From assembly GCF_029873635.1 (NCBI RefSeq), contig NC_080422.1, positions 13,051,936-13,115,935 on the forward strand: a DNA stretch of 64,000 bases. Reading direction: 5' to 3'. This DNA is from Malania oleifera (taxonomy: Eukaryota; Streptophyta; Magnoliopsida; Santalales; Ximeniaceae). Position 1 is the first letter of the stretch. Every line of letters begins with the position of its first letter. A program made the position numbers and the translations under genes. Under the pieces are notes generated by a model that saw nothing but the letters and a program-made list of their open reading frames with translations, made no database searches and was not told the DNA's origin. Of the stretch, positions 17,641 to 51,365 are shown one piece after another.

Positions 17641-17718
17641 CTTACTAAAATAACTTCACCATCTTTCTTTAATATCTTCGTCCTTAACCAAGACAATATC
17701 ATCCTCACTTTTTATACA

Positions 17719-19169: not shown

Positions 19170-19234
19170 ATTTTACGCCGACTATTAGCTACCTAACGCA
19201 ACCCTCCTCCTTAACCCAGGCTTAGGACCGACTG

Positions 19235-26118: not shown

Positions 26119-27237
26119 TCAGAACTCACACTTGCTAAACTTGGCATAGAGCTTTTCCTCCCTGAGCGTCTGCAGTACCTGTCTCAAATGCACCTTATGA
26201 TCCTCAAAACTCCTCGAGTAAACCGGTATATCATCAATAAAAACTACAACAAACTGGTCAAGATACTGATGAAAAACTCTATTCATCAAGTCCATGAACA
26301 CAGCTGAGGCATTTGTCAGACCAAATGGCATAACGAGGAATTCATAGTGCTCATACCTAGTCCAGAAGGCTATCTTCGCAACGTCCTCTGCTTTCACCCT
26401 CACTTGATGATAACCTGATCTGAGGTTGATCTTGGAATACAACCGTAAACCCTAGAGCTGGTCAAATAAATCGTCTATATGGGATAGAGGATATTTATTC
26501 TTAATAGTGACCTTGTTTATCTCTTTGTAATCAATACACATCCTCATAGACCCGTCCTTCTTCTTTACAAACAACACTAGAACTCCCCATGACGATACAC
26601 TGGGTCATATAAATCCCCTATCCAGCAAGTCTTGCAACCGATCCTTTAATTCTCTTAATTCAACTGGAGCCATACGACAAGGAATCTTAGAGATTGGTGT
26701 TGTCCCTATAGGTAAATCTATGGCAAAATCCACCTCACGTTCGAGAGGTAACCCTGGTAGCTCCTCTGGAAAAACATCTGTAAATTCTCGTACTACTGAT
26801 GTACTGTCAAACTTCAATTCATTCTCTGACACTTCTTTTACAAAAAACACAAACCCCTGACTTCCATCTAGGAGCAATCTGCTAACCTGTGTGGCTGACA
26901 CTAACTGCGACGGAGCACATACACATGAACCAACGAATCTGAACTCCTGTTCACCTGGGGGTCTGAAAATCATTTCCTTCTGATGGCAATCAACACTAGC
27001 GTAATTTATTTCTAACCTGTCCATACCCAGTATTACATCAAACCCACACATATCCAACACGATCAGGTCATATGGTAACATTCTCCGCTGTATTTCTATT
27101 GGAAAGCCTCTGCGTACCCTTTGACACCTCATCACTGACCCAGATGATGTAGCTACTAATAATTCTATATCTACTAACTGAGTCTCACTTTCAGACAATT
27201 TTAACATAGGATGTAGAGACAAAGGAATGAATAACAC
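26119..27237 (-). pseudogene. Chromovirus protease and reverse transcriptase (fossil)
   Basis: The right part (26605-27237) contains the protease domain (VLDMCGFDVILGMD) and the RT approach PISKIPCRMAPVELRELK. The left part (26119-26442) contains [33 protein letters not shown] and the catalytic box [11 protein letters not shown]. Together they give the order protease then RT expected in Ty3/gypsy. Confidence 0.88.
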
Positions 27238-28183
27238 TTAAATCAAATAAATTAATAACGGAATGTGATAAAATAAAAGTACCTGTCACCACATCCGTAG
27301 CAGCCTTAGCATCACCCCGCGTCAAGGCGTAAACCCTCGCTGGGGCTATATTCCTTTGCTGGCCTCCACGAGGCACCTGATATCCTCCTCGATAAGGCCT
27401 GGGAGTTGGAACCTGGTCTGGATCACCTAGGCATGCATGCGCCATGTGGCCGAGTCTCCCACAGTGGTAACAAACATCTCTCCTTACCCAGCACTCCACC
27501 ATATGTCATCTCCCGCATGTCTGACATACCGGGTAGGTCTGCATACCTTGATTCTCTTTAGGTTCTGTTGTCTGTCTCTGATCTCCCCTATCATGGCCTC
27601 CTCTTCATGGGCCCTTGATGGAGCCAGTCTGAAAACCCTAAAGCGTAGGTCTCTTCCTCTGACTCTGAGCTGCAATACCTCTTTGTATACCACTCTCAAT
27701 AATCGCAGCCTTATCTACAACCTCCGCAAACATATAAGCCCTAAAACCAATCACCTACTCAAACAAGTTCTGCCTCAGACCCTCTTCAAACTTCCTTTCC
27801 TTTTTCTCTTCATTTGGTGCTAGATGTGGGGCAAAATGCGACAACTCAATAAATCGAGCTGCGTACTGAGATACGGTCATCTGCCCCAGTATCAGGTACA
27901 TAAATTCTATTGCCTTCGCGCTCCGAATGATAGCGAGGAAATATCGCTCAAAGAACAACTCCTTGATTCGGTCCCAAGTCACTGGCACTGGAACAGGCCT
28001 CTGCTCCTTAATCAGTCGCGCTAACCTCCACCAGTGCTTCGCCTCCCCTGTCAGTGTAAATGCTGCAATTACCACCTTCTGCTCATCCACACATGGAAGC
28101 ACAACCAGCGTCTCTTCAATGTCCTGAACCCAGTTTTTAGCTATAATTGGGTCATCTCCTCCAACAAAATATGGGGGCTTCAT
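27191..28183 (-). pseudogene. Chromovirus gag (fossil)
   Basis: The minus strand gives the retrotransposon Gag core (WVQDIEETLVVL, FTLTGEAKHWW, ELFFERYF, MTVSQYAARFIELS) and a CCHC knuckle CYHCGRLGHMAHAC (about 27430-27475). It lies next to the primer-binding site side of the element. Confidence 0.85.
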
Positions 28184-28640
28184 CCGCGTAAACTACTTTA
28201 TTGTGCAGCTACGCTCTCCAGAGCTCTTGGCCATTTTAGCCATCACCTGCTGGGTGACGCTGCGCAGTACAACGTTAGTATCTCCACCTCCTATGCTAGA
28301 GGGTCCTGGCTTATCTCCCCTAGCATTCATGCCACTGCTTCTTGGATCCATCCTGAAAAACAAGGAACATACATTAAGAACCTTATCTCCTATACAATCC
28401 TAACTTGAATCTCATATTCATAATCAACTACCTTCCCTGATCTTAATTCAAAATCCAATTCGGCAACCCAGACATATGACCCAACGATAGTTTATTATGA
28501 CTTTCCTAAAATTGTCACCCCAAGAAAAACACAGAAACCACCACGAAAATCCTGTACCCAGACTACGGAACAAATCTCAAATCCCTTCCTATACTTTGGT
28601 ATTGCTTCCGCTGCACTCTAAAGTTTATAGAACCTAGCAA

Positions 28641-30507: not shown

Positions 30508-33500
30508 AGTTACATAACCTTCTTGTAAGTCATGATGTGTACCTTCGTTGCCTTAAAGCCACATCCCAGCAACTGGTCACCTCCGCGAACTACTATACTC
30601 GGCGATCTAGCTCTGATTCCTCTTCTAGAGGTCACTCTTCCACATGCTTCTCAAAACCAAATGGTTTTGACCATAGCAATGAAGCCCAATACTAAAAAAC
30701 CAGCAATCCACAAGACAATAGGAAGCCTAGGCTCAATGGCCAGCGGCGTTACACACCCAAATGCCAACTATGTGAACAGTTGGGCCATACTACTAAATAT
30801 TGTGCTCGTGTCCAATTTCTTGCAGCAATGGCCAACTGTGCCTCCACTATACCAGCCCCAAACACAAAGTGGCTTATAGACTCCGTAGCCTCCCACAATA
30901 TCACCTGTAATTTGGCTAATTTATTTGTCCATAATGAATACAATGGCACTGACGAGGTTGTCATCGATGATGGTTTAGGTTTGCATGTCTCTCATATTGG
31001 TTCATTGGTTCTTCACTCATCCACACTCTCTTTTCATTTAAATGATACCCTTCGTGTTCCCAATATTCAAAATTTGTTTATCTCTGTTCATTATTTTACC
31101 ACTCACAATCATGTTTTTGTTGAGTTTCATCCCTCTTTTTTTCTTGTCAAGGATCAAACCACGGGGGCGGTTCTACTCAAAGGTGTGTGTGAAAATGGTG
31201 TTTACACTCTTCCAGAGTCAATGGTGATGTCTTCTTCACCTATGGTTGCAAACGTACATGAAAGGACCCCCATTGAAGGGTGGCACAAATGTCTTGGACA
31301 TCCTTCTCATAAATTTGTCCAACACCTTGTCAACTCTTTTTCTCTTTCAATAAAAAAAGAAAAAAAGTTGTCTCTCCTCTTTGTACTTCCCATTAATAAA
31401 GCTCACAAGCTCCCATTTTGGCAAAATAGTCTTCAAAGTCATGCCCCTCTTGACTTAATTTATACTGCTGTTTGGGGAAACTCCAATACTATTGGCATTG
31501 ATGGATCCCGTTATTATCTCATTTTTGGTTGATCATTTCACAAAATATATTTGGTTTTATCCTATGGAAACAAAATCTAGTGTCAGCACAATATTTCCCT
31601 AATTTAAACATCTTGTTGAAACCAGATTTCAATCCAAAATCAAAACTATATATTCAGATAATGGTGGTGAGTTTACGACTTTAAAAAAATATTTCTCCAT
31701 TCATGGAATAAGCCACTTCACAACCACTCCTCATACACCACAACAAAATGGTGTTTCTTTGCGTCGTCACCGTCACTTAGTGGAAATGGGCCTTACTCTA
31801 TTACATAATGCTTCTCTACCATTTACATATTGGCCCTATGCATTTTCCACTGCGGCATACCTTATTAACCGTCAACCAACTCCTCTCCTTCAAAACATAT
31901 CTCCATTTGAAGCATTATTTAAACAACCACCAAACTATTTGAAGCTAAAAAAATTTGGTTTTTTATGGTTTCCACTCACTCGTCCGTATAATACAAAAAA
32001 AATGCAGCCCAAAGCAGTTCCTTGTCTCTTTGTGTGCTATTCTTTGACCCAAAATACCTACAAATGCCTTGATCCATCAACCAAAAAAATATATCACTCC
32101 AAACATGTTCTGTTTGATGAAACCCGAAATGGTCTCTCTGAAAAATCAGCATCATCGTTGTCCTCAGCAAGTGCTTCATCCCTTCCCGGCGCGCCTCCAT
32201 TCATTCAGAAGCCTTCACTAGTGACTTCGGTAGAAGTGAACACCTTTGCATAACCCCCAGGTACCGCCTCTCTCATTTCTTCTCTTCATTCCCAACATCT
32301 TAGCTCTTTTTTCTCATGCCCTAACTCCCTTGCATCGCATGACATTGCGTCATCATCCTCACATTCGCATGAACCCACTAATTTGAACCTTGGTCACATA
32401 CCAACTACCTGTGACTCGTCTGCACAATAGCCTATACGAACCCACTGCATGACCACTTGGTCAATGAATAACATCCATAAAACCAAACAACTAAATTCCA
32501 CAACCAAACATCCCATTCCTAGCACCACTGAACCAACTTGTGTGGGATAAGCTCTTCTTGAACCACACTGGAGAACAACCATGTCAGAAGAACTCATTGC
32601 CCTTATGCGCCATGGCACATGGGAACTGGTCCCTCCCCCACCTAATTGTCAACCCGTAGGGTGTAAATGGATATTCTAGGTCAAGAAAAAACCTGATGGG
32701 TCTATAGATCATTTTTAAGCATGACTTGTTGCCAAAGGCTACAATCAACGTCTTGGGTTAGATTACAAGGAAACCTCTAGCCCCGTTGTGAAGCATGCAA
32801 TAGTTTGAGCTGTTCTAACAGTTGTTGTAATGCAGGGATGGCCCTTAAGACAACTTGAGGTTAACAATGCTTTTTTGCATGGCCAGTTAACTGAAACAAT
32901 TTATAGAGCCCAATCCCCGAGATTCAAAGATGCATCGACACCTAATTATGTTTCCAAGTTAGGTAATTTATGGCCTAAAACAAGCTCCTAGAGCATGGTA
33001 CTCGGCACTGAAAATGGCTATCGTGAGTCTCGGATTTTAAAATTCAAAGGCAGACTCATCCTTGTTTATCTACCAACAAAACTCTGTTTTATGCTATTTA
33101 TTGGTATATGTGGATGATTCGATCATCACCGACAGCGATTCGATTTTTTTATCTCATATCATTAAACAACTTGAAATTCAATTCTCCATAAAAGACATGG
33201 GCCAGCTTCATTTCTTCTTAGGCACGGAAGTCATTCCAAAAACATCCGTTCTCTTCCTATCACAACACAAATACAATCGAGACCTTCTTTCAAAAACAAA
33301 TATGATGGGTGCAAAGGAAGTATCTACCCCGATGTCTACAAGCATGGCTCTAAAGCTGGTTGATGGAACCACATCATTTGATAGTATCGAGTTTCGAAGT
33401 GTTATTGGAGGCCTTTAGTATTTATCCCTCACACGCCCAGGCATTTGTTTCTCAGTAAATAAATTGTCACAATTTATGCATAAACCCACTGTTTAGTCCA
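30508..33500 (+). mobile_element. Ale/Retrofit-like Copia internal region, LTRs not seen
   Basis: Plus-strand order: gag CCHC region (CQLCEQLGHTTKYC, about 30755-30800), protease (WLIDSVASHNIT), GAG-pre-integrase (GWHKCLGHPSHKFVQ), integrase (31440-32000, with a TPHTPQQNGV block), RT (32580-33400) with catalytic LLVYVDDSIIT near 33090-33120 and FSIKDMGQLHFFLG. The left end abuts the Tekay-like LTR and the right end meets a Copia leader in the opposite orientation. It is broken in many places. Confidence 0.85.
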
Positions 33501-34395: not shown

Positions 34396-34729
34396 ACATT
34401 TACTTAACTTGGTGAGAGAGAGAGAAAGAGAGGTTTACTCATATTCAACAATATTACTCTATTAGACTGAACTAACATAAGCATCTCGACTCTTAAACGT
34501 GGCACATGTGTTGAAAGTCTTTTCTTGATTTTGAAGTGAGCTCACATAAATTATAAAGCAAGAGATACTCTTGATAACCTTTCCTTGGAACTGAAATATA
34601 TAAATAAACATGCCAGACTAAACCACCCAACCTCCAAAGGGCTGCAATGATTCTAATCCAGAGAAGAGAAGGTGATGCCTTTCTAACCAAAAAAAAAAGA
34701 AAAAGAAAGGCTATACAAAAGGTTGTTTG
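34396..34729. other. Short spacer, nothing recognised
   Basis: Non-coding sequence with a GA-rich stretch near 34415-34430 and an A-rich tract near 34690. Its last nine bases (34721-34729, ggttgtttg) are the left target duplication of the element that follows. Confidence 0.6.
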
Positions 34730-37238
34730 GAGTTTTTTCCCGTTTTATTATTAAATTAAAATAAAATATTAAATAATACCTTATTTAGGAAAAAAATTTC
34801 TCAAACTAATACTCACGTAATCTTGCAGGACCAAGCTGCGAGATATGCTTCAATTCCTACAAAATTTGTTTCCCCATTAACTTTCTTATCCAATTAAATC
34901 TCGCAGGAAGATCCTGCGAGATTTGCCAGGCATATATATTTAAAATTAAAAATGCATTAAACCCAATTAAAGAAACAAAATATTTTTTACCTTCTAAAAA
35001 AAGACAAGTATTTTTAGAAATAAACTCTATTTAATAAAAAAATAAACTCTGTTTAATAAAAAAAAATGTAAACAAAATATTATTACCTTCTAAAAGAAAG
35101 ACAAGTATTTTTAGAAATAATAATTTCAATAAAATTAGATAAATCAACTTTTAAAAAATTTATTTGAATCTAGCAAGACTATACCTAAAAAAATCTATTT
35201 TATTCAAAAAAATAAATGCAAAAAATTTATAAATGTTAAATAAAATGCAAGCTACCCTATCCAATGAATGCTTAGTTGAGAATCTCATATATATCTAACT
35301 AAGATCTAATTTGTTCATTTTTTCACTTTTTTTTTTTAATTTTAATCATTTTTTTAATAGTTATTTGATTAAAAAAAGCATCAATTTAATTAGGTTTTTA
35401 ATTTATTTTAGTTTTCAAAATACTAAGAAAAAAAATTTGCTAATTTTTAATTTTTTCTTTTTATTTCTAATTTTTTAGTTCTTGTTCCTAATTTTTAGTT
35501 TCATAATTCTTGACAATAATACCAAACAAATTGAAGATTTTTCATTGTTATAATAATATTTTAATATGTAAAATTGGTTTCTGGAGATTAATTTATTTAA
35601 TTTATATAGAAAATTTAATGGAAATTAAAATAAAATGACCATGTGTCAAATAAACATATTTACAAAATTTTAAAGAATTTTTAAAATAATAAAAAATATT
35701 TTTTTTACTATTTTTCAATTGTCTGCAAGGTTATTTTTTGTAGCAGTTAAATTTTGAAAATAATTGCAATACAAAATAATTATAATTAATATCTATTTTT
35801 ATTATAATATATTATGATTTTTATTATCTTAATCATGTTTTCTAATTTTTATTTAGTTCAAATTAAAGACAAAAACTAACATACATTCAATTATGTGTTT
35901 TTGTTTACTAGTTAGGGATACATGTGTTGCCCATGGAGTAGATTTTATGCATTAGAAGTAATAATACATAGATTATAGGAATAATTTATTATCTATTTAC
36001 ATAGGAACTCTAACCAATTACCATACAAATTAATGGATTTCAAAATTAACTCAAGTGAATATAAAACTCAAATTACATTGGGATGAATAAAATAACTTTT
36101 ATTTAACTAAATAGTGAAAGATTAAGAAAATTGGAGTATTAATCAAAAGAACTTGATATTTACAAACATTTAAAAAAAATTTTAGAAGATATTAATAGAT
36201 ATTTAATTAAATAATATATATAAGAATGAATGTTGTGCACAACTGCTTATGCAGCTACACGTATAGTAAAAAAAAATTTTTTTTATTATTTTTAAAATTC
36301 TTTAAAATTTTACAAATATGTTTATTTGAATTATATTTTAAATTCACATGATCGTTTTATTTTAATTTCCATTAAAATTTCTATATAAAATCAATAAATT
36401 AATCTCCAGAAACCAATTTTACATATTAAAATATTGTTAGAACAATGGAAAATCATCAATTTGTTTGGTATTATTGTCAAGAATTATGAAACTAAAAACT
36501 AGGGACAAGAATTGAAAAATTAGAAATAGGAAGAAAAAATTAAAAATTAGCAAATTTTTTTTTGTTAGTATTTTGAAAACTAAAATAAATTAAAAACCTA
36601 ATTAAATTGATGCTTTTTTTAATCAAATAACTATTAAATAATATGACTAAAATTAAAAAAAAGAAGAAGTGAAAAAGGTACAAATTATATCTTAGATATA
36701 TATGAGATTCTTAACTAAGCATTCCTTGGACAGGGTAGCTTGTATTTTATTTAACATTTATAAATTTTTTGCACTTTTTGAATAAAATGGATTTTTTTTT
36801 TTAGGTCTAGTCTTGCTGGATTCAAATAAATTTTTTAAAAATTGATTTATCTAATTTTATTGAAATTATTATTTCTAAAAATACTCGTCTTTCTTTTAAA
36901 AGGTAATAATATTTTTGTTTACATTTTTTTTATTAAATAGAGTTTATTTCTAAAAATACTTGTCTTTTTTTTAGAAGATAAAAAATATTTTATTTCTTTA
37001 ATTGAGTTTAATGCATTTTTAATTATATATATATATACACTTGGCAAATCTCGCAGGAAGATCCTACCAGATTTAATTGGATAAGAAAGCCAATTAGGAA
37101 ATAAATTTCACAGGATTTGAAATAAATCTGACAGCTTGGTCCTACGAGATTACGTAAGCATTATTTTGATAAATTTTTTCACAAATAAAGTATTATTTAA
37201 TATTTTATTTTAATTTAATAATAAAACGGGAAAAAACT
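34730..37238. mobile_element. Mutator-like non-autonomous foldback element
   Basis: The 2.5-kb element has inverted arms of about 1 kb each (34730-35720 and 36260-37238) around a loop of about 540 bp. Its end is gagttttttcccg; the other end is the reverse complement except for the last base or two. Nine-base flanks ggttgtttg and agttgtttg agree at eight positions, the duplication size of Mutator-like elements. A smaller palindrome (aaatctcgcagg and its complement, about 34897-34925) lies inside each arm. There is no coding sequence. The end sequence and inner aatctcg palindrome are shared with the element at 44226-45997. Confidence 0.85.
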
Positions 37239-37262
37239 AGTTGTTTGTCTCCTCCCTTTCAA

Positions 37263-37482
37263 CCCTTTTCCCTTTACTTTTTTTTTTTCTTTATTTTCAT
37301 TTTTCGGTCTTAGCGCGTCCATGTCTCTTCCCTCCCCTGTTCCTTTTTTTTTTCTAATTTTGTTAACAGCCTCCTTATTTATTTATCACTGCACTTGGTC
37401 TTGGGCCAAGCTTGCCTGCGCCTGAATTTGAAAACCTCTCTCTCTCTCTCTCTAGCTCTGTCTGTACAAGAACTAAGAAGAG
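37263..37482 (+). promoter_or_regulatory. Proximal upstream region of transporter copy 1
   Basis: This stretch matches 47421-47644 upstream of the intact copy almost throughout, including an A+T-rich ttatttatttatcactgcac segment about 110 bp before the ATG, which could serve as a TATA region, and a CT-dinucleotide leader. Homology to copy 2 stops just left of it and the Mutator-like foldback element ends 24 bp away, so only about 220 bp of shared upstream sequence remains. Confidence 0.55.
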
Positions 37483-37765
37483 ATGCCAGAAGACTCTGCA
37501 TTGGAGAAGCTTGAGATGGAGATTTCTTCAGATCAGAGCAAAAATGAGCAGCCCCAGGCTCCGGGAAGAAGGAAAGGTAGCCTGATAACCATGACATTCA
37601 TCATAGGTACACATTACTGCAACTGGGTCTGTGAGATTTAAGCGCTTTGACTTCAGAAGTACTGTGTGTTTTTAGTTTCTGAATCAATTTTTTTTTTTTT
37701 TTGGTTCTGCGAAATGAAATTAAACAGCAAATGAAGCATTTGAGAAGGTGGCAAGCTATGGGCTG

Positions 37766-38582
37766 CTTCCCTCATCCTCAACCTTTGTGCCTTGTTCAAC
37801 ACAAGGTCCGTAGGCCCAGCTGCAGAGAAGGAAATACCCTAAATTAATGAAGCTTATTATGGCAAGAAGCCAATAGTAATTTTCATAATGACCCCTGTTA
37901 ATGTTAATAGAAACCCAACTCTCCTTTCCTCCTCTATTTGTAGCATTATCCACAGTGCTCAGTATGACACTGGCCAACAGATTTGCCACAGCCATTCCCA
38001 ATCCGAAAAGAGATGAAGCAATGCTGGACATACTCTTGGGAAACTCCGAATAGTAGAATTCTGTCTGGCCTATCGCATTAAAAGCTTCAGCTAGACCACT
38101 CAAGCAATGTTGCGGTACGAGCCACATAGCCGACATACCCACTAGTCCATGAGGATTATTCAAAAATCCTTCATGAATTGCTCTTCTCCGGCCAATATGC
38201 TCAACAAGTCCTGAAACTACCATGGCCATGCAAGAAAAAAATAGCCCAATTCCCATTATTTCTTTTGTGCTAAGCCGCACAGGTTTTCCTCTGAGTTTTG
38301 ATGCCAAGGGAAGGAGCACACGATCGTAGATAGCAATCCATATTGTTAAAGCATTGATTGTAAACATTCCAAATGAACCTGCAGGAATTTGGAAGTTTGA
38401 AGTAATGTGTCTATCCATAGAATTAGCTTGCAGTAGGGGAAATGAGCTTTGGCTTATGTTTGTTGACATCATGATCCCAGTTGACCACAGTGGAATGACC
38501 TTGATGAGTGCTTTGAGCTCTTCTACTTGCTCTACAGTGCAGAGTCTCCATGGATTTGAGGCTAATCCATCTGGGTCTATGT
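37766..38582 (-). pseudogene. Inverted copy of transporter exon 4
   Basis: Read on the minus strand this gives the C-terminal half of an NPF transporter, from DPDGLASNPWRLCTVEQ to SWAYGPCVEQGTKVEDEG. It is uninterrupted across the exon and keeps the Trp codon lost in the sense copy. It is almost identical to 39083-39894 and shares variants with it that copy 2 lacks (for example the segment after the first SMDRH-proximal residues, NISQSSFPLLQ versus NTTQRLFFLVQ in copy 2). It therefore arose by local inverted duplication after the two gene copies separated. No 5' exons accompany it on this strand, so it is not a gene by itself. Confidence 0.92.
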
Positions 38583-39082
38583 ATAGAGAGAAAGAGAGAG
38601 ACAGAAAAGCAAGACCCACGAGGTCTGCACATGGATATTCTCTTCTTTATTGTAGATGGCAGAAGTTCAGAGTCTCTTCCCCCGGCCTTCTGCATTCAAG
38701 ATCACTTGGGATGGAAAGTGGGTTTTGGAGTTCCAGCAGTTCTCATGTTTTTATCGGCCTTCCTTTTCCTCCTGGCTTCTCCATTTTATATTAAGCACAA
38801 ACCCAGCACAAGTTTGTTCACTGGCTTTGCCCGAGTACTCGTTGTTGCTTACAAGAACAGAAAACTTGCATTCCCACCATCAAACTCGGACGGATGGTAC
38901 TACCATGACAAGGACTCAAAGCTTGTTGTGCCAACTGATAAACTAAGGTACCATTTGATTGAAATCATTTTCATTGCCTTCTTGGTCAATTTAAAGTTCA
39001 TGCAAGAATGTTCATTGAGTTCCTTTTCAATTTCTGCTCAGGTTTTTAAATAAAGCTTGCATAATTAGAAGTCCTGAAAAAG

Positions 39083-39894
39083 ACATAGACCCAGATGGAT
39101 TAGCCTCAAATCCATGGAAACTCTGCACCGTAGAGCAAGTAGAAGAGCTCAAAGCACTCATCAAGGTCATTCCACTGGTCAACTGGGATCATGATGTCAA
39201 TAAACATAAGCCAAAGCTCATTTCCCCTACTGCAAGCTAATTCTATGGATAGACACATCACTTCAAACTTCCAAATTCCTGCAGGTTCATTTGGAATGTT
39301 TACAATCATTGCTTTAACAATATGAATTGCTATCTACGATCGTGTGCTCCTTCCCTTAGCATCAAAACTCAGAGGAAAACCTGTGCGGCTTAGCACAAAA
39401 GAAAGAATAATTGGGCTATTTTTTTCTTGCATGGCCATGGTAGTTTCAGCACTTGTTGACCATATCTGCCGGAGAAGAGCAATTCATGAAGGATTTCTGA
39501 ATAATCCTCATGGACTAGTGGGTATGTCGGCTATGTGGCTTGTACCGCAACATTGCTTGAGCGGTCTAGCTGAAGCTTTTAATGTGATAGGCCAGACAGA
39601 GTTCTACTATTCGGAGTTTCCCAAGAGTATGTCCAGCATTGCTTCATCTCTTTTCGGATTGGGAATGGCTGTGGCAAATCTGTTGGCCAGTGTCATACTG
39701 AGCACTGTGGATAATGCTACAAAAAGAGGAGGAAAGGAGAGTTGGGTTTCTTTTATCATTAACAGGGGTCATTATGAAAATTACTATTGGCTTCTTGGCA
39801 TAATGAGCTTCATTAATTTAGGGTATTTCCTTCTTTGCAGTTGGGCCTACGGACCTTATGTTGAACAAGGCACAAAGGTTGGGGATGAGGGAAG
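39083..39894 (+). repeat. Sense arm of the exon-4 inverted repeat
   Basis: This is the partner arm of 37766-38582. The arms are about 812 and 817 bp and the spacer is about 500 bp (38583-39082), consisting of an intron 2 scrap, an exon 3 fragment and intron 3. The few differences include the 2-bp and 3-bp length changes and scattered substitutions. RNA crossing both arms would form a long, nearly perfect stem. Confidence 0.9.
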
Positions 39895-40006
39895 AGGTTT
39901 TAAGCAGGAAGAAGAGCTTTCTGAACTAAAGAATGCAGTGTTGGATGAAAAGGAAGGCCCAAAGGAGGTAGAGGGGTTATATAAATTAAGAGAATTGCCA
40001 GCATAA

Positions 40007-41857
40007 TTTGTGCCGAGTGTTAGCCAGATTGTTGTACTAAATATATAGAACTACATGGTTTGAGCAAATGAAGATACGATTGTAAGTTTGGAATTAGAGG
40101 AATTCAAATAGCCACCAGTCTCATACACTCTGCAGATAATGCATGGTTGCTGCTCAACTCTCTTATGCACCACCATTTACGACATAATTCTCGAGCTTTA
40201 TGTGGGTTTTTCTCCTTCCACTGGGATAGTCATGTCAAAATTGTAGTTGTGTTGTGTGAAGTGAAACAAAAGCTGCATACTCATTCTAGTATAGGGGTAA
40301 AGACCTTGCTTTGACCAATTTCTACTGTCTATTCAAAAATTAGTGAAAAAAAAAAATTAGAGTAGGGCATTTTATTTTATGAAATTAACAAGGGAGTTTG
40401 TTGATCTGTTGATTATAAAAATGTTGGCTAAAATGGGAAACTTCCGGAAGTTACAGAGTGTTGGCTTTTTTTACTTCCATTCGGCTTAAATTTCAGACCA
40501 GCTTTGTGTGCAAATCCTGCATATTCTGGTCTCCGATCAACGGCCGTGAAGTCATCGTCGTTGGGAGTCTCCGTCCCCGTTAGTCCCTTAATTTGTGGAC
40601 CCCACGAGTCATGGGTCCCGGCCAAACCTGACCATTGATCGAGAAACCATCAACGACCCAGAAACTGAAAATTAAAACAATCCAGAAAACAATGAACAGC
40701 AGCAAATGGGTTTGTCACCAATGATGAGAAGAACTTTGGTCGGCCCGTGACCGTATGTTCTGTAGAAGATTTTGAACCCATTGCTCGCACCTCCATCGCC
40801 ACCGACCTCACAGAAGGGCATCTTCAGAGAGAGAGAGAGAGAGAGGATAAGAATTACAGAAGCCAGAATGCAGATTCCAGAAAGGGGAAGAAAAGTTTGG
40901 ATTACAGTTTATCAGTTCTATATGATGGGTGATGTTCGTGAAATTTGGGCGTCTTCTTTTAATGAGTTGTGGGTCGGCAATTTACACGTGGTCTGAAAGT
41001 CAGCTGGAGTAGGCGAGGTCAAAGTTGACAACTCGTTAAAACAAAATGGCAGGAGAAAATAAAAATAGAAAGAGCTCCTCACTTTAAGTTTTTAGTTAAA
41101 AGATCATTTTATATTTTATTTTTCAATTAAATTTGGTGTCTATATTAAGATTTGTGTAAATTTAATAAAATATAATATAAATAAATTTCTCTTAAATTTA
41201 AATACATTTAAATCCAGAGCATAAATTTCATATTTTTAAATACAGTCTTTGAAGTATTTAAACAGTTTTTACTTTGAATAATTGATTTGAAAATTTTAAG
41301 TTATTAGAGCTTAATTATGGGTCATTAATTGGTAGATAAGTAAAAATGTGAAACCTTGTAATTTTTAAAGGATGGATAGGAGCCCAATTATTAAATTCCT
41401 AACTTTAGGTAAGTTTTTTTAAATTGGTTATCATTCAATTTTTCAACATTTGTTCAAGTGAGTCTTATCATCGCACCTTACGTGCATCCGAACCAATCTT
41501 ACTTCCTATGTTTTGACTCTATTCGGATCCATCTTCCAAGCCTAAATGATCTTTATTGATTTCGGTTACACATTTAATGTTTCAAATATTAGAAATAAAT
41601 TTCACGTCTTGATTTTTTTTATAAAGTCGCCCACCTGTTTGGCTCTGAAACCACTTGTGATTAAATATTTAATCATCATTTTATGATTCAATTATATGAT
41701 TAAGGCGATCTTCATCAACCCTATGTTCAGAGATGGGTTGAAATTGAATTTGTATAGATTGTAATATATTCATATACCAAACATTAGGAAAAAATAATCT
41801 CACAGTATCATATTCTGTGTAGCTCAGGATAGGGACGCGGATTTGATAGAAACATGA
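40007..41857. other. 3' region of copy 1 without an identified gene
   Basis: The segment 40430-41000 is less A+T-rich than its surroundings and includes a GA run (40830-40853). Short frames on both strands are present (40428-40625 minus, 40747-40996 plus) but match no family I recognise. The rest is A+T-rich. This whole stretch is absent from the equivalent place after copy 2, where the shared 3' flank starts within 10-20 bp of the stop codon. Confidence 0.45.
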
Positions 41858-42240
41858 AGTAATAGAAACATTTGCAAGTTGGTTGGACAAAGCACCAAAA
41901 AGGGAATTGAAATCATTTAGTATATATAATATGTACACACGCGCGCAACAAATATCTTGGACCATATTAGTTCACCCTCTCATTTCTTTAAAATATAAAT
42001 AAATATATTATGGAATATCTTGAAATCATTGGTTTAAAACCATTTACACTATTCATTTGTTTATTCTTAAGTTTAAAATTTATTCGATTTGACATTGTTG
42101 CCGTAGCATATAAACATTTCTCATAGAAACAATTTGTGTCTTATTTTAAAATAAGAAGCTTGTATATTTCTACTATATCATTTAACTATTTATGCATTTA
42201 TTTTTATAACATAATTATAAACATTCAAGATATATGTTGA
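41858..42240. repeat. Shared 3' flank of the transporter copies (matches 50870-51365)
   Basis: Both stretches share the aacatttgcaagttggttgg, ttcaccctctcatttcttt and atatcttgaaatcattggtt stretches in the same order. This marks the right end of the duplicated transporter unit in copy 1. Confidence 0.85.
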
Positions 42241-42884
42241 AAAAAAAAAAAAATAGGGTGAAGGAAATTGATCACCCCTAATTGATGAAAAGATGCTCCT
42301 AATATTTCAAAATTTTCTTAAATCTCTCTTGATTGTACATCTTTCAAAAGCAGAAAGATGAGACTTTTGCTTCCCCTTTCACATTTATCGTGCCCTTTTA
42401 ATGCATTGCAGGTTAATTTCCTCATCAAATTTGGCAAAACTCAATAATGATGAATACCATTTCTCCTTTTATTAATTAATAAATATTGTTACTCAATTTA
42501 ATTTAATTGTATTGGTGTTCCTCTCTGTCTGATTTAATTCAATTGTTACTGATTCACTTGAGGGTCATGACTCCTGTCATCAATATGAATTAAATAATAC
42601 AGAATTAGAGGCCCATTTAAAATAAGATTATTATAAGAAGGGAAGAAATTGCGAGAGAGAAGGGGAGAGATGAGGAGAATTAGCGAAAGAAAATAGAGAT
42701 AGAAAGTGACTGGCACAGCGGTGATGTTGATCCAAATATAGAATGGTAAAGATTGTTAAGTTAGTCATTTTTCTGTTGATTTCAAATTGTCACTTGCACA
42801 ATAGTAGTTTTTAACCTACTTACTGTTTGACGGCGGTCTAAAAAATAATTATCTTCTACAAATATATTCATATCCTTAACAAAA
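42241..42884. other. Spacer between the two transporter units
   Basis: A+T-rich sequence with a purine-rich patch (42630-42700, ggaagaaattgcgagagaga-like). No coding frame or repeat end was recognised. The junction of the two duplicated units should lie here. Confidence 0.45.
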
Positions 42885-44225
42885 ATTACACCAACTTGGG
42901 ATCACAGTATATATTTAGTAAATTTTTTATTGATAAATAGTAAATGAATTGGTATTTGCCTAGCTAAATAAATATATCATTATTTACCCATTTTTAAAAA
43001 GATAAAATGTAACAAAGATTGCACGGAACTTCATATCACAATAGTAAAAATTTAAATTTAAAATTTATTTTCATTCCATCCGCAAACCAACTCAAATAAT
43101 TCTTATGATATGAGAATCACTCCACATTACTTAAAATGAAGAAGCATGTAATAATACCCCTAAGGTGTGGTTCAGGTGATAGTGCGAGCTGTGGGAGTGC
43201 CTTTCACGAGATCAGGTGTTCAAACTCTTCCGAACTCGTTTCCGCTCTTGGACTCCTGAATTTACCCTCCCTTTGGACTTGTGAGGTCAACTTCAAGGGG
43301 CGCAGGATTAGTCACGTGAAGTGTAAAACGAACGCGTGCATACCTATTCCAAAAAAAAACAAAAAAGATGCATGTAATAATGTAATGGGCACGCAATAGT
43401 GTTCGGAGGAATGCAATGCAATGAATGGGGACCGGACTTCCCAGCCTTTTGATTGAATTAGTAGGGAGCAGCTGCGCGAACCAATGAGGAGGCCACCTAA
43501 CCGTGGGAATGAGACTTACAAAAGACAAGGAAGAGAATAAATGAGATTCATGGGGGCCCACAAATGAAGCCCAATTCACTGTGGGAATGAGACTTACAAA
43601 AGACAAGGAAGAGAATAAATGAGATTCATGGGGGCCCACAAACGAAGCCCAATTCACTGTGGGAATGAGACTTACAAAATGGGCAGTTGGTAAGTAAGCA
43701 CATGACTTGTATTTACAATAGGTTAGTCATTTTTCTATTGATTTCAAATTGTCACATGACTTTTGTTTTATTTTTGCATGTTGGGATTCGGAATGGATGA
43801 CTCGGACTTTAGAGACTATTTAATTGTATTTTCACTTTTTCCTTAATTTTTCTTGGAATGTGGGACTCTTTATGGATGATTTTATTATTTTTTTTATGGA
43901 TAAAGTATAAATGGTCATCCCAAGGCCCTCCCTGTTGTAAAAGAAGTGAAAATTTTCTTTCTTTTTAATTAGCTAGCCCCCACACAAAATGGGGTGTCTA
44001 TAATAATAAAAATAAATAAATTAATAAAACAACACTACAATATATATATTAATTACTTAATCATGATATGTAAAATAAATAATAATATATTATTATTCTC
44101 ATTATATTAAAATTAGTCATCAAAGCAATTAATAATAATCAGAGTATTGAAACTTTATTATTATTATTATTATTAGACATAATAGATATTTTAATTCAAG
44201 GGAACAAGTAGCAGAGATATTTTTA
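42885..44225. repeat. Duplicated block C, left part (matches block A)
   Basis: This stretch is collinear with 3575-4380. It contains a local tandem repeat at 43503-43680. It is interrupted at 44225 by a Mutator-like element and resumes at 46008. Confidence 0.85.
43503..43680. repeat. 78-bp tandem repeat, two and a third copies
   Basis: Units start at 43503, 43581 and 43659 with gtgggaatgagacttacaaa and include the gagattcatgggggcccaca segment. The corresponding part of block A (3908-3975) holds a single unit, so the amplification is specific to this copy. Confidence 0.85.
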
Positions 44226-45997
44226 GAGTTTTTTCCTATTTTAACCCTTTATTTTTTAAATATATTAAATAATACCTTTTTCGGAAAAATATTTTCCGGA
44301 ATAACTCTGACGTAATCTCGCTACTTGGAATAACGAGATTTAAGCAAATCTCGTTATTTGAAGTAGCGAGATTTGCCACGTGTCATTTCCATAAAAAATA
44401 TATTATTTAATATATTTTTAAAAAAAATGATAAATTAGGAAATAAATTATTCTGCGTAATAAATTATTTCCCGATTCATTACGCAGAAGAATTTATTACG
44501 CACAATAATTTTTTTAAAATATATATTTTCATATTAAATATAAAGATAAATATATATATTTTTTAACAAATCTAAAAATTTTAAAATATATATTTTTATA
44601 TTTTTCACTAAATCTCAAAAGCACTATCTTCTGTTTAAAATTTTAAATTAAAGCGATTCACATATTATTTTAGATACCACAATTTAATTTTTAAAAATTG
44701 CTATCAAATGATCATAGTTTAAATGTCTTGTTGATAATTAGGCGGAATTATATTTAATAAATAATAAATTAACAAAATGTAAAGAGAATTATTTAGAGTT
44801 TGAAATGATTTTTATTTACCGTCCCGCGACAAATCCCCAAAACTGTCACCGGTTTTCTCTCCTCTCCATAAAATCGTCGCCGATTTTTCTCCTTTCTCAA
44901 CCAAAAATTTATTTTTTTAATTTTTTTTTATTATATTTTCTGAGTATTTACACCCAATTCTATACCTTTTTTATATGTATATTCAAAATATTTTTTTAAA
45001 AAAGCTAAATTTTTATAACTTTTTAAAATTTTAAATATTAGAAAATAAAAAATATCTTCCACAACTAAGCAAGTCTTTAACATTTTTTTTTCTCATCTCT
45101 TATAATAAAGATAATCCATCTTTACTTTGAATAATAAATGTATACATAATTATCATATCTTAATCTTCTCTTTTTTTTTTTTTTTTATTAATTGAACAAA
45201 ATAATAAGTTGAAACACCTAAGAAGTAGTCTTAGAAAGAGTATCCCACATAATTAGAATCCACAAATAAATACATTAATTACATAAATCTTTGACTTAAG
45301 AATATTTAACCTCAAAAAAGCCAACACACTTTTTTTTTTTGTTTCTTAAAAAGAATCAACTTTTTACTTTGATTTTTTTATTCATTGATCATAAAAAATC
45401 AGTTAATAATTAAAATGAAAAATTATATTTGAGAATTTGAATTCGAGAGTCAAATTTAAATTTGGGTAAAATTATAAAAAAAAATATTTATTTTTTATAC
45501 AAATACATAAAAATCATATTCATAATTTAAATTTCAAACTCTAAATATATATTATTATTTTTAAATATTTTTTAAAAATGAATAATATTTTTGAATGTTA
45601 TATTTTCTGTCCCTTTAACAAACTGTCAGTGTATATATATATATATATATATTAATTTCAGGTACAATTAAAATTGGTAATTTAAAACAAAGTTCAAATT
45701 TTCAATTTATTATACAATAAGTTTTTTTAATATATATATTTTAAAAATAATAAATTGAGAAATAAATTATTCTGCATAATAAATTATTTCCTGATTTATT
45801 ACGCAGAATAATTTATTTTCTAAATTTTTATTTTTTTTAAAAATATATTAAATAATTTTTTTATGGAAATGACACGTAACAAATCTCGCTACTCCAAGTA
45901 ACGAGATTACATCAGGATTATTTCAGAAAATATTTTTTTAAAAAAGATATTATTTAATATATTTAAAAAAGAAAGGAATAAAATGAAAAAAAAACTC
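44226..45997. mobile_element. Mutator-like non-autonomous element with long inverted ends
   Basis: The 1.77-kb element has a perfect 10-bp target duplication gatattttta (44216-44225 and 45998-46007). Its absence from block A at the matching position (4370-4385) proves insertion after duplication. The inverted ends run about 290 bp and start gagtttttt. Inside each end is a palindromic aaatctcg...cgagattt segment. The interior (44530-45740) is A+T-rich without a transposase frame. Confidence 0.9.
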
Positions 45998-46007
45998 GAT
46001 ATTTTTA

Positions 46008-46199
46008 TCCCCCACAAAATTGGATTACCATGTGAATCCAGATTGTCGAAGGAGATGTATTGAATATCCATATTTTGAGTGCGAGTGCGGGCTATGTATA
46101 TTTGAGTGGGGCCCGCGTAGGAATCTTCATGCTTCCTTTATATATATAGTGTGTATGTGTGAGTGCGAGTGGAGGTCAATTTCCTTCAACCCCATACTA

Positions 46200-46242
<43 letters not shown>

Positions 46243-47420
46243 CAGATACGCATACGGGGCTGTTGGGGGGTCGTCCCTTCACGTCAGTTACTCTCATGCC
46301 ACGTTTGCTCTACCTACGTACGTGTGCAGTATCCACCGGTCAAACACATGCATGCATGCATGCATCCACCTCATCCTTCATTTCTATATATTTAGGGTCA
46401 AAACTCAAAAGGGGTTGCCCTGCCCACTTGCACAATGACGTCAATTTTTATTTTTATTTTAATTTTTTAAAATTTAATCGATAAAATCGGTGCATTTATA
46501 ATAGCTTTTTTTTTTTTTTTTACAAAAAATTGACTAATTTATAGAATATTTAAATTTATTCAGATTAATTAGGTAATTGGACAGAGAATTTAAACTATAG
46601 ATCAATCGACCAAAAAATTTTATTTTTATGGATTTATAGGTTGAAATCTATTTGGATGCACATTAATTGGATTTTTCAATCAAATTTTAATAATTACTAC
46701 TTAATTTGGGTGTGAAATAAGATAAGCTCAGTTATTAAGTTATACTAAAAGATAGAAAAGAATTCAGTCAGAATCGCACTCATAATCTAAGTCAATTTAT
46801 AATATTTTATAAATTTATCAGTGGGATACACACAAAATAACTTATCGATCGTTTACTTGTATTAAAATTTAGAATCAATTCTCTAGTAATAAGCACGTTA
46901 GTTTTTCTTAAGACTTTGGCAATGGCTAGCTTACCTTAAAGATGATAACCCAAAAGCTAATATAAAAATAAAAATTAGGATTTTCATGGTTTTATATTGA
47001 ATTTAATGAGATTGGATTGAATTAAACTATTTAGATGGACCAACTATTATTTCTTGTAGATGTAGATAAATGCATCAAATATCATGTCATTTCATTTTCA
47101 AGCCATTAAGTGAGCCCAATATGAGCAGGCAAGAGGTAGCAGTCCACAGATTAATCATGAAGAATGAATACATATATATAGAACTTGGATAACAAGCTGA
47201 CCATGGAGAAATTAATTAATGGTCAAAAAAAAGTAAACATGTAGGGGAGAGATGGTTTCAAATTTCATTTTCAAGCAAAGCCCAGTATATATGGTACGTG
47301 CACTACATCTATTAAATCATGGTCTTCCTTGCATAATATTCGGCTTTTTAAAAATATGAAATATGAATATCTACTTGCGAGTGCATGCTATGTATGAATG
47401 CAGCACAACACGCATGCAGC
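46008..47420. repeat. Duplicated block C, right part (upstream flank of the intact transporter)
   Basis: This stretch matches the end of block A (to 4445, then 4680-5175) and block B (12066-13060 and 14164-14181). It includes an ATT-type trinucleotide run at 46200-46239. Because it leads straight into the promoter-proximal region of copy 2, it identifies blocks A and B as former transporter upstream sequence. Confidence 0.85.
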
Positions 47421-47644
47421 TTTTCCCTTTCCTTTTTTTTTTTCTTTATTTTCATTTTTCAGTCTTAGCTCGTCCATGTCTCTTCCCTGTTCCTTTTTTC
47501 TAATTTTGTTAACAGCCTCCTTATTTATTTATCACTGCACTTGATCTTGGGCCAAGCTTGCCTGCGCCTGAATTTGCAAACGTCTCTCTCTCTCTCTCTC
47601 TCTCTCTAGCAGACTAGCACTGTCTGTGCAAGAACTAAGAAGAG
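47421..47644 (+). promoter_or_regulatory. Proximal upstream and 5' leader of transporter copy 2
   Basis: An A+T-rich ttatttatttatcactgcac segment (about 47520-47540) lies 110-125 bp before the ATG, at a plausible distance for a TATA region with a short leader. A CT-dinucleotide run (47583-47608) sits in the presumed leader. The transcription start cannot be fixed from sequence. The region is conserved in copy 1. Confidence 0.5.
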
Positions 47645-48547
47645 ATGCCAGAAGACTCTGCATTGGAGAAGCTTGAGATGGAGATTTCTTCAGATCAGAG
47701 CATAAATGAACTTGAGATGGAGATTTCTTCAGATCAGAGCATAAATGAGCTTGAGATGGAGATTTCTTCAGATCAGAGCATAAATGAGCTCGAGATGGAG
47801 ATTTCTTCAGATCAGAACATAAATGAGCTTGAGAAGGAGATTTCTTCATATCAGAGCATAAATGAGCTTGAGATGGAGATTTCTTCAGATCAGAGCATAA
47901 ATGAGCTTGAGATGGAGATTTCTTCAGATCAGAGCATAAATGAGCTTGAGATGGAGATTTCTTCATATCAGAGCATAAATGAGCTTGAGATGGAGATTTC
48001 TTCAGATCAGAGCATAAATGAGCTTGAGATGGAGATTTCTTCATATCAGAGCATAAATGAGCTTGAGATGGAGATTTCTTCATATCAGAGCAAAAATGAG
48101 CAGCCCCAGGCTCCGGGAAGAAGGAAAGGTGGCCTGATAACCATGCCATTCATCATAGGTACACATTACTGCAACTGGGTCTGTGAGATTTAAGCGCTTT
48201 GACTTCAGAAGTACTGTGTGTTTTTAGTCTCTGAATCAATTTTTTTTTTGGTTCTGCGAAATGAAAAACAGCAAATGAAGTATTTGAGAAGGTGGCAAGC
48301 TATGGGCTGCTTCCCAACATGATCCTATATCTGATGACAGATTACAACATGGGCATAGCCAAGGGGACCCACTTGCTATTCTACTGGACTGCAGCTATCA
48401 GTTTCTTGCCTCTTGTTGGAGCTTTCCTCTCAGACTCTTACCTGGGTCGATTCCTCACCATTGGTTTTGGTTCCATCTCTAGTCTCCTGGTAATTAATTT
48501 CACCTTTCTAGGATTTTAATTTATGCCTCATTAAAATTTATATATAG

Positions 48548-48630
<83 letters not shown>

Positions 48631-50860
48631 AACAGAAAAGCAAGACCCACGAGGTCTGCACATGGATATTCTCTTCTTTATTGTAGATGGCAGAAGTTCA
48701 GAGTCTCTTCCCCCGGCCTTCTGCATTTGTAAATTGTGAACACCTTTATTGTGGTCACTGAAAGGTCCCATGTCTTTGTGATCTGGCCGGAGCGTGTAGG
48801 ACACGCGCCGCAGGGGTCGGATTCTTTGTAGCTCCTCTCAAAACAGGCGTTAACCCCCCAACATGGTCTTCAGAGGCCTTCACAATAAACTAATAAATGA
48901 GATTTGTCCAAGATACTGATCTTTAATTAAAAGTGAGTGATGACTTCTGCTTATTATTATTATTATTATTAGTTATTAATATTGTTATTAATAAGTCCAC
49001 ATTAAAGTGAATTAAGAGAAAGCCTCTCTTGAAAATGCTGGACTATGGGATCTACTTATTTCATTAATTAATGCCATGCGCTTGGAGTTTTCCTGGTTTC
49101 TTCTTCATTTGTTTACTAGACCCTTCATACAAATAATAATGCTAGACTTTGTTTTCTTACTGCATTTTGTCAACTGTAAAATCAGTGAATTAATCATTTT
49201 TTCTGTAATGAAAACTCATCACAAGCAATTTGAATTGGGCTTAAAAAAAATAATTTTTGAAGAAACCTGTTCTTGCCAATGGATTAATTGAAATAAATGA
49301 CCCTAAATATTAACTGTTTATAGGGTATGACCCTCCTCTGGCTGACAGCCATGCTTCCCCAAGCAAGGCCGCCTCCATGCAACCAATTAGCCACTAACTG
49401 CGAGTCCCCGACATCTGCCCAATTTGGTCTTCTAGTTTCTTCATTTGCTCTCATGTCCATTGGAGCTGGTGGGATTAGGGCATGTTCTTTAGCATTTGGT
49501 GCAGAACAGTTGGATAAAAGTGAGAACCCAAAAAATGAGAGGGTCTTGGAGACCTTCTTCCGCTGGTACTATGCTTCTACAGCTCTTCCTACTCTGGTTG
49601 CTTTGACGGGCATCGTTTATATTCAAGATCACATGGGATGGAAAGTGGGTTTTGGAGTTCCAGCAGTTCTCATGTTTTTATCGGCCTTCCTTTTCTTCCT
49701 GGGTTCTCCACTTTATATTAAGCACAAACCCAACACAAGTTTGTTCACTGGCTTTGCCCGAGTACTCGTTGTTGCTTACAAGAACAGAAAACTTGCATTC
49801 CCACCTTCAAACTCGGATGGGTGGTACTACCATGACAAGGACTCAAAGCTTGTTGTGCCAACTGATAAACTAAGGTACCATTTGATTGAAATCATTTTCA
49901 TTGCCTTCTTGGTCAATTTAAAGTTCATGCAGGAATGTTCATTGAGTTCCTTTTCAATTTCTGCTCAGGTTTTTAAATAAAGCTTGCATAATTAGAAGTC
50001 CTGAAAAAGACATAGACCCAGATGGATTAGCCTCAAATCCATGGAGACTCTGCACTGTAGAGCAAGTAGAAGAGCTCAAAGCACTCATCAAGGTCATTCC
50101 ACTGTGGTCAACTGGGATCATGATGTCAATAAACACAACTCAAAGACTATTTTTCTTAGTGCAAGCTAATTCTATGGATAGACACATCACTTCAAACTTC
50201 CAAATTCCTGCAGGTTCATTTGGAATGTTTTCAATCATTGCTTTAGCAATATGGATTGCTATCTACGATCGTGTGTTCCTTCCCTTGGCATCAAAACTCA
50301 GAGGAAAACCTGTGCGGCTTAGCACAAAAAAAAGAATGGGAATTGGGCTATTTTTTTCTTGCATGGCCATGATAGTTTCAGGCCTTGTTGAGCATATTCG
50401 CCGGAGAAGAGCAATTCATGAAGGATTTCTGAATAATCCTCATGGAGTAGTGGGTATGTCGGCTATGTGGCTCGTACCACAGTATTGCTTGAATGGTCTA
50501 GCTGAAACTTTTAATGCGATAAGCCAGACAGAATTCTACTATTCGGAGTTTCCCAAGAGTATGTCCAGCATTGCTTCATCTCTTTACGGATTGGGAGTGG
50601 CTGTGGCAAATCTGCTGGCCAGTGTCTTACTGAGCACAGTGGATAATGCTACAAAAAGAGGAGGAAAGGAGAGTTGGGTTTCAAGTAATATCAACAGGGG
50701 TCATTATGAAAATTACTATTGGCTTCTTGCCATAATGACCTTCATTAATTTAGTATATTTCCTTCTCTGCAGTTGGGCCTATGGACCTTGTGTTGAACAA
50801 GGCACAAAGACTGGAGATGAGGGAAGAGATTTTAAGCAGGAAGAGGAGCTTTTTGAGTAG
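47645..50860 (+). CDS. NRT1/PTR family (NPF1-type) transporter, intact, four exons
   Basis: Exons 47645-48158, 48272-48489, 49324-49874 and 49969-50860 have GT-AG introns and keep frame, giving 724 residues. Proton-coupled NPF (POT) carriers move nitrate, peptides or hormones across membranes; the sequence resembles the NPF1.1/1.2 group, known in Arabidopsis as low-affinity nitrate carriers of the phloem. Visible features: ExxEK (EVFEK, residues 174-178) in the first membrane segment, FLSDSYLGRF after it, the PTR-signature region ETFFRWYYASTALP and GWKVGFGVPA, the PDGLASNPWRLCTVEQVEELK loop region at the start of exon 4, and EFYYSEFPKSMSSIASSL late. The N terminus is enlarged by 11 copies of a 13-residue unit; with one unit it would be 594 residues, the usual size. 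The C terminus is shorter than that of copy 1. The substrate is not predictable. Confidence 0.93.
47672..48100 (+). repeat. 39-bp coding minisatellite, 11 units, in transporter exon 1
   Basis: The stretch is exactly 429 bp, eleven 39-bp units, each encoding LEMEISSDQSINE or a close variant (D/Y alternation at one position, one N for S, one K for M). It covers residues 10-152 of the transporter. Copy 1 has a single unit in the same place. The unit length keeps the reading frame, and the encoded segment is acidic and predicted to lie on the cytosolic N-terminal side before the first membrane segment. Confidence 0.97.
48540..48626. repeat. TA then GA dinucleotide microsatellite in intron 2
   Basis: A TA run (about 48540-48571) passes into a GA run (48572-48626) shortly after the intron 2 donor site. 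In copy 1 only a short GA remnant remains (38583-38600), right at a rearrangement breakpoint. Confidence 0.9.
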
Positions 50861-51365
50861 CTCAGGAAGGAACAGAAACATTTGCAAGTTGGTTGGACAA
50901 AGCACCAAAAAGGGAAAATAGAAAGACACAAACAACAAATACCTTTTTTAGCTTTTCTCCGCGGGCCCATCTCTCTCTCTCTCTCCATGATTTACAGTTG
51001 TATAACGGGCCCCTACAAAATTTCTTTCATTTCATTTAGTATAATATGTACACACGCACACAACAAAACTCTTGGACCATGTTAGTTCACCCTCTCATTT
51101 CTTTAAAATATAAATAAATATATTATGGAATATCTTGAAATCATTGGTTTAAAACCATTCACACTATTCATTTGCCTATTCTTAAGTTTAAAATTTATTC
51201 CATGTACTGGTTGGTGACGTTGTTGCCTTGACATATAAACATTTCTCATAGAAACAATTTGTATCTTATTTTAAAATAAGGAGCTTGTATATTTCTACTA
51301 TATCATTTAACTAATTATGCATTTATTTTTAAAACATAATTATAAACATTCAGGATATATTTCTA
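50861..51365. repeat. 3' flank of transporter copy 2 (matches 41858-42240)
   Basis: The match to copy 1's distal 3' flank starts about 10 bp after the stop codon. About 100 bp (50920-51020, including a CT run) are extra here. Relative to copy 1, a stretch equal to the last coding 30 codons plus about 1.85 kb of 3' sequence is missing, so a deletion ending the C terminus early in copy 2 is inferred. Confidence 0.75.

Follow-up and report, generated by a model that had tools for sequence, protein, structure and literature searches.

Does a transporter pseudogene that carries the same exon in two facing orientations work as a natural RNAi locus, or does it merely have the anatomy of one? The question is raised by a locus in the garlic-fruit tree Malania oleifera (Santalales), a species with a genome of 1.49 Gb that is called a root hemiparasite in the available text of PMC12310656. 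We analysed a stretch of 64,000 nucleotides (C6:13051936–13115935, hereafter the window), for which an initial annotation had proposed that a damaged gene (copy 1) could produce small RNAs against an intact neighbor (copy 2). In our assessment, copy 1 is probably an inactivated tandem NPF1.2-like paralogue in which an inverted exon 4 was joined in at microhomologies, and which, although now capable of forming a hairpin, is most likely a neutral relic.

Copy 1 opens with exon 1, intron 1 and 44 bp of exon 2; an exon 4 in antisense orientation follows, then what is left of intron 2, the 3' end of exon 3, intron 3 and finally exon 4 in sense orientation. Its parts are as follows, compared with copy 2 and with a second intact-frame relative, C0:

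37240–37482, plus strand: retained proximal promoter and 5' UTR of copy 1 (243 bp; 89% identical to C0 over 37240–37463)
37483–37606, plus strand: exon 1, with ATG and donor site intact and junctions as in copy 2 and C0
37728–37771, plus strand: initial 44 bp of exon 2, up to and including a 6-bp microhomology with the antisense arm (junction 1)
37766–38582, minus strand: antisense arm, which repeats most of exon 4 in inverted orientation and has an uninterrupted reading frame on the minus strand
38583–38696, plus strand: remnant of intron 2, of which 38585–38696 corresponds to 48616–48727 of copy 2 (97%) and to C0 (99%)
38697–38947, plus strand: 3' part of exon 3, upstream of which ~890 bp spanning intron 2 and exon 3 are gone
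38948–39041, plus strand: intron 3 (94 bp), with donor and acceptor both present
39042–40006, plus strand: sense exon 4, closed by the stop codon at 40006; compared with C0 it has deletions of 2 bp and 3 bp and a single premature stop
39083–39894, plus strand: sense arm of the inverted repeat (812 bp)

The region from exon 1 through intron 1 to the start of exon 2 (37483–37771) matches both copy 2 and C0; relative to these two genes, copy 1 is missing the greater part of exon 2, the start of intron 2 and the ~890 bp noted above. Copy 1 is a transporter pseudogene that is unable to encode a transporter, because its exon 1–exon 2 frame ends after 69 codons, the ~890 bp are missing and exon 4 contains a stop and a frameshift. 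Both the stop and the frameshift (the 2-bp deletion) fall in the sense arm, while the antisense arm is open throughout, with a stop-to-stop frame of 296 aa at 37756–38646. On anatomy, the initial annotation was right: it had described a pseudogene with inverted exon-4 arms, a retained first exon, core and proximal promoter and the first splice sites.

The inverted repeat itself is well defined. Comparing the window with itself using BLASTN, we aligned 37766–38582 with 39894–39083 at 96.2% identity over 817 columns, with 26 mismatches, two gap openings and an E-value printed as 0.0, far beyond chance. The spacer between the arms is 500 bp, in agreement with the facing exon-4 copies reported earlier, and a separate repeat search of the window recovered the identical arms. 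As a background control, we screened 20 pieces of 10 kb from the same scaffold (200 kb, a small sample) for inverted arms of at least 300 bp, at least 80% identity and a spacer of at most 3 kb. A comparable repeat was found in 0/20 pieces, so the inverted exon-4 structure is not commonplace at that scale. By the same criteria there was none in the 20 kb around C0, and the window contained two such repeats: the exon-4 arms and a transposon-like element upstream of copy 1:

34730–37239, no strand assigned: multi-copy transposon-like element with inverted arms of ~1 kb at 34731–35711 and 36263–37238 (86.6% identity)

This 2.5-kb element lies ~245 bp 5' of the start codon of copy 1 and splits the proximal from the distal promoter. 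It sits between 8-bp direct repeats, GTTGTTTG, at 34722–34729 and 37240–37247; at the C0 site the element is absent and a single GTTGTTTG is found. The family has at least 62 matches in its own genome, both of the element's own arms included (40 candidates scored of 2598), and its relatives occur on many scaffolds, several of them as paired arms. Other repeats in the window include a further pair of facing arms, more diverged than the first, between copies 1 and 2 (44229–45993; pieces of 69–113 nt that are 84%, 79% and 91% complementary) and a 78-bp tandem repeat at 43503–43679 (2.3 copies, 98% match). At 7430–10617, 16942–19172, 24726–28192 and 30696–33418, the translations of open frames resemble what remains of copia-, LINE- and gypsy-type retroelements.

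The inverted arm could instead be an artefact of a chimeric or misjoined read set, inverted duplications being a familiar class of chimera. According to the accessible portion of PMC10199050, the assembly was developed from an earlier PacBio-based draft, the gaps of which were filled with long reads, and has a heterozygosity of 0.12% and a base quality of QV 34.9 (~1 error in 3,000). An assembly error at the inverted repeat nonetheless seems unlikely, because the arms differ by substitution at 26/812 positions, in excess of what heterozygosity or base quality would give, and because the junctions show losses and microhomology instead of a simple fold-back. The antisense arm also has private substitutions, and 36000–42000 contains 0 N. 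On balance, we give the artefact very little credence.

Which intact gene is closest to the arms bears directly on the proposed target. The initial annotation had named copy 2, which has the following features:

47645–50860, plus strand: copy 2, an NPF1.2-like gene, with exons at 47645–48158, 48272–48489, 49324–49874 and 49969–50860
50010–50826, plus strand: the part of copy 2 exon 4 that matches both arms (repeat search and BLASTN)

Both arms do match copy 2 exon 4, as had been claimed: the antisense arm (37766–38582) aligned with 50826–50010 at 94.1%, and sense copy 1 (38694–39924) aligned with 49621–50856 at 94.2% (BLASTN). However, searching the whole genome for DNA similar to the sense arm returned 10 matches, consisting of the two arms, copy 2, C0 and six weaker pieces (67–77%), and ruled out copy 2 as the main relative by revealing the closer C0. 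The C0 exon-4 match lies at C6:12949448–12950262 (97%), ~140 kb upstream and outside the window, in a gene that runs from C6:12947453. The four exons of C0 join into an intact frame of 621 aa, and the M. oleifera NPF1.2-like database protein P0002 equals C0 at 100% over a 239-residue exon-4 stretch. Across exon 4, the antisense and sense arms differ from each other at 26/812 positions, from C0 at 20/817 and 23/812, respectively, and from copy 2 at 49/817 and 56/812, with 43/817 differences between C0 and copy 2. Judged by these identities (97.2–97.6% to C0 compared with 93–94% to copy 2), the closest intact relative of the arms is C0, not copy 2.

The PTR2 domain (PF00854) was matched by copy 2 (E = 1.8e-79), by the antisense arm (7.9e-41) and by the sense frame (1.4e-20). 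Of the 120 matches listed out of 2190, the named top ones were mostly NPF1.2 or NPF1.2-like, and relatives with solved structures include NPF2.10 and NPF6.3. These matches point to membership of the NPF1 / NRT1-PTR (POT) transporter family and bear out the NPF1-type transporter proposed at the outset.

Copy 2, by comparison with C0, looks loosely constrained. Its open frame of 724 aa has an expanded exon 1 and a shortened C-terminus, and dN/dS relative to C0 was 0.74 over exons 2–4; in exon 2 all 7 changes were nonsynonymous, and the ratios in exons 3 and 4 were 1.11 and 0.49, respectively. C0 and copy 2 differ at 49 amino acids; there, the commonest residue among 60 relatives (taken in id order from the top of the listed proteins with 570–640 aa) was kept by C0 in 31 cases, by copy 2 in 10 and by neither in 8. 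Copy 2 is not the best choice of target, since the match of C0 to the arms is closer and C0 has retained conserved residues at more positions.

Three further observations concern copy 2. Its exon 1 contains an in-frame 39-bp tandem repeat (47670–48101; 11.1 copies, 96% match) encoding ELEMEISSDQSIN-like units, of which C0 and copy 1 have one, and its N-terminus has ~130 extra residues, mostly acidic units (exon 1 of 514 versus 124 bp). In exon 4, 10 copy 2 changes are clustered in 24 bp (50136–50159; alignment columns 127–150), where a conserved stretch reads ISQSSFPLL in C0 and TTQRLFFLV in copy 2; this cluster may reflect gene conversion or an altered functional site. Synonymous divergence between C0 and copy 2 was 16.5/195 sites in exon 4 versus 5/~182 in exons 2–3 (P = 0.02, rounded counts), which suggests uneven gene conversion.

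We then consider how the rearrangement arose. At sites 470, 674 and 676 of exon 4, the two arms are alike and differ from C0, copy 2 and more distant paralogues, and they grouped together with 74% bootstrap support (200 replicates) in an analysis in which one paralogue locus (L008) was without a usable exon-4 match and another (L006) matched over 62 columns. Because of these three common sites and the bootstrap value, the antisense arm probably derives from copy 1's own exon 4. Support for the grouping is moderate, given two conflicting sites: 485, which joins the sense arm to C0, and 278, which joins the antisense arm to copy 2. Junction 1, between exon 2 and the antisense arm, has the 6-bp microhomology CTTCCC; junction 2 sits at the position of a (TA)n(GA)n tract in intron 2 of C0 and copy 2; and junction 3 has the 3-bp microhomology ATT. 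We infer repair by microhomology-mediated template switching, following a break near the intron-2 (TA)n(GA)n tract. An inverted exon 4 of copy 1 would have taken the place of most of exon 2 together with the start of intron 2. In the same or a separate step, the remainder of intron 2 and the beginning of exon 3 would have been lost. This reading relies on short microhomologies at two of the three junctions, and several events are possible. Using the rate in the available text of PMC11417964 (2.5e-8 per site per generation, with 10-year generations, or 2.5e-9 per year), the 26/812 differences (~3.2%) would date the arms to ~6.5 million years ago, assuming neutrality and no conversion. With the parent exon, two intact-frame relatives and three junctions readable, the step from gene to hairpin is largely reconstructable.

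What RNA might such a locus produce? Copy 1 still has the donor of exon 1 and the acceptor of exon 2, as well as both splice sites of intron 3. The original donor and true acceptor of intron 2 are absent, so a transcript would probably keep the antisense arm; if the core promoter fires, this would yield a stem of ~0.8 kb. The predicted spliced RNA (2,436 nt, assumed start at 37400) has a minimum free energy of –1703 kcal/mol, a value with no shuffle control, and 792 of the 817 antisense-arm bases pair with the sense arm because of the inverted repeat itself. The RNA stem of ~810 bp expected in the initial annotation, if the locus is transcribed, therefore agrees with the predicted fold. The arms contain 16 perfect runs of at least 21 bp, the longest being 122. 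Long, near-identical inverted arms lie downstream of putative promoter sequence, as in a hairpin locus.

Exact matches of small-RNA length to intact relatives were also abundant in a comparison covering C0, copy 2 and four further paralogue loci. In C0 we found matches for 446/797 antisense-arm and 434/792 sense-arm 21-mers; in copy 2 there were 289 and 245, respectively, consistent with the earlier statement that both arms share runs longer than 21 nt with copy 2. At L005, L006, L007 and L008, the antisense arm had 0 matches each and the sense arm had 4, 0, 0 and 0. Because these next four paralogue loci already share only 0–4 21-mers, matches to genes of other species would be rarer still, and we rejected the idea of small RNAs acting against more distant NPFs or host plants.

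These properties favor a working natural hairpin-RNA locus, in which the copy 1 promoter drives a ~0.8-kb stem that DCL cuts into 21–24-nt RNAs silencing C0 and, to a lesser extent, copy 2. The core promoter and splice sites needed are kept, the predicted RNA pairs almost throughout its arms, and the exact 21-mers in C0 and copy 2 are nearly lacking in the other paralogues. In addition, the accessible text of PMC9263138 reports that perfect hairpin transgenes self-silence by methylation and that mismatches prevent this, although the mismatched designs described there (1 in 4, 2 in 10, all C to T) are far denser than the 3% found here. Because perfect hairpin transgenes are methylated and self-silenced (PMC9263138, same portion), small RNAs at copy 1, if any, may act mostly on copy 1 itself. 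Against a working locus, the multi-copy inverted-repeat element so close to the ATG may itself attract silencing, and splicing of exon 1 to a cryptic acceptor, TTGTAG, read in the sequence at 38650–38655 would remove the antisense arm.

The pattern of substitutions also weighs against it. Differences between the arms showed no bias toward G:U compatibility (8 compatible and 18 not, plus 5 gap columns), and 8/17 arm transitions were G:U-compatible, equal to the chance expectation; selection for pairing was unsupported on these counts. There was no CpG loss (11 in each arm, 11 in C0 and 10 in copy 2), and with counts so similar in arms and relatives a methylation (C-to-T) footprint was likewise unsupported. 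The sense arm has drifted from C0 to the same extent (2.8%) as the sequence before it (12/386, 3.1%) and after it (17/630, 2.7%). Relative to C0, the most diverged part of copy 1 is the proximal promoter, with 16 mismatches over 226 aligned bases (7.1%) plus 39 gap columns (37248–37482), compared with 3/283 (1.1%) for exon 1–intron 1–exon 2 and 1/112 (0.9%) for the intron-2 remnant. This uneven divergence suggests gene conversion or an uneven history. Synonymous changes made up 10/27 of those on the branches of the two arms versus 22% expected (P = 0.10), so that weak coding constraint may have acted on part of these branches; with few changes, the neutrality tests have low power.

Searches for other small-RNA features gave no matches: 0 Rfam families reached the gathering score in 36000–52000, a test for MIRNA genes in which a new family would not show, and no tRNA or tmRNA was detected in the whole window. 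A literature search by titles and abstract starts found no Malania small-RNA dataset among the papers listed. The available text of PMC12310656, which reports RNA-seq of roots and haustoria (twelve samples), contains no mention of NPF, NRT1 or nitrate transporter, and 'small RNA' appears there a single time, among the references.

Taken together, a working hairpin-RNA locus is unlikely in our estimate. The initial annotation is supported in its anatomy, but its interpretation of copy 1 as an RNAi locus regulating nutrient transport gained no direct support: the arm differences show no G:U bias, CpG counts are alike and the sense arm drifts like its surroundings. Still more doubtful is the bolder version, in which a local repair event in this hemiparasitic tree made copy 1 an RNAi locus, with exon 4 turned into a ~0.8-kb hairpin behind the promoter of copy 1 itself, and C0, along with copy 2, has received small RNAs from it ever since. 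If this were true, the hairpin would be long-lived, at ~6.5 million years, and its mismatches may soften self-silencing.

Alternatively, the antisense arm could be a separate minus-strand gene for a small protein amounting to half a transporter. Its 296-aa open frame retains the PTR2 match (7.9e-41), and a 238-aa database protein (P0121) has exactly that sequence. Among 125 exon-4 columns at least 90% conserved in the 60 relatives, it departs from 3, compared with 2 for C0 and 5 for copy 2, so the antisense arm shows no more visible decay than the intact genes do. However, the start would lie inside exon 4, the N-terminal half of the fold is absent, no upstream exon of its own was seen within this gene's structure, and P0121 may be a mechanical prediction. 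The open antisense frame also needs no selection, because the chance of its staying open is ~0.64 (12 substitutions, stop fraction 3.7%, indels not counted). We therefore rejected a functional minus-strand gene as barely credible: its openness is expected by chance, although residue conservation does not count against it.

Overall, we regard copy 1 at present as most likely a neutral relic, one that may locally carry some 24-nt small RNAs and methylation. It could also regulate C0 or copy 2 in trans, but this is the less likely alternative. If copy 1 does silence, it would provide a nutrient-transporter case in a parasitic tree; if it does not, it would be a clean example of hairpin anatomy alone being insufficient for an RNAi locus.

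Inverted duplicates that silence their relatives are familiar from rice Low glutelin content1 and the Arabidopsis PAI1–PAI4 inverted repeat, the functions of which are known by genetics, whereas copy 1 is known from sequence. A miRNA foldback is far shorter than the 0.8-kb near-perfect arms described here. Young MIRNA genes are nonetheless similar to copy 1 in their origin by inverted duplication: in the available portion of PMC3237417, pseudogene-related miRNA genes are reported to have arisen mostly in this way, and new small-RNA regulation has been proposed to originate, among other sources, from inverted repeats of pseudogenes. Maize Mu killer, as described in the accessible text of PMC3440606, is likewise a partial inverted duplication for which a long hairpin RNA was proposed, but it derives from a transposase gene, and its transcripts favor short antisense RNAs, with the hairpin model as a possible extra. 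The soybean i-i locus (the CHS1-3-4 inverted cluster) also consists of inverted gene duplicates, with siRNAs against relatives (PMC3804491, available part); its arms span 10.91 kb and whole genes (PMC13051633, available part), whereas those of copy 1 cover most of one exon.

Among the cases compared, copy 1 most closely resembles soybean GmIRCHS in anatomy. As far as the available text of PMC13051633 describes it, GmIRCHS is the candidate I allele, an inverted repeat of pseudoCHS3 with detected dsRNA, a phenotype and revertant deletions. Both loci have an inverted pseudogene repeat downstream of a promoter, an intact relative near and a predicted dsRNA transcript. They differ in repeat length (1,087 bp versus 812–817 bp in copy 1), in promoter (from another gene, GmJ1, versus copy 1's own) and in arrangement (tail-to-tail with a 78-bp gap versus head-to-head with a 500-bp gap); moreover, the dsRNA, phenotype and revertants are reported for GmIRCHS, whereas the hairpin of copy 1 is predicted from sequence (all GmIRCHS details from PMC13051633, same part). 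Seen against these systems, copy 1 is, on its anatomy, a transporter pseudogene with hairpin potential and a new example of an already known type of structure.
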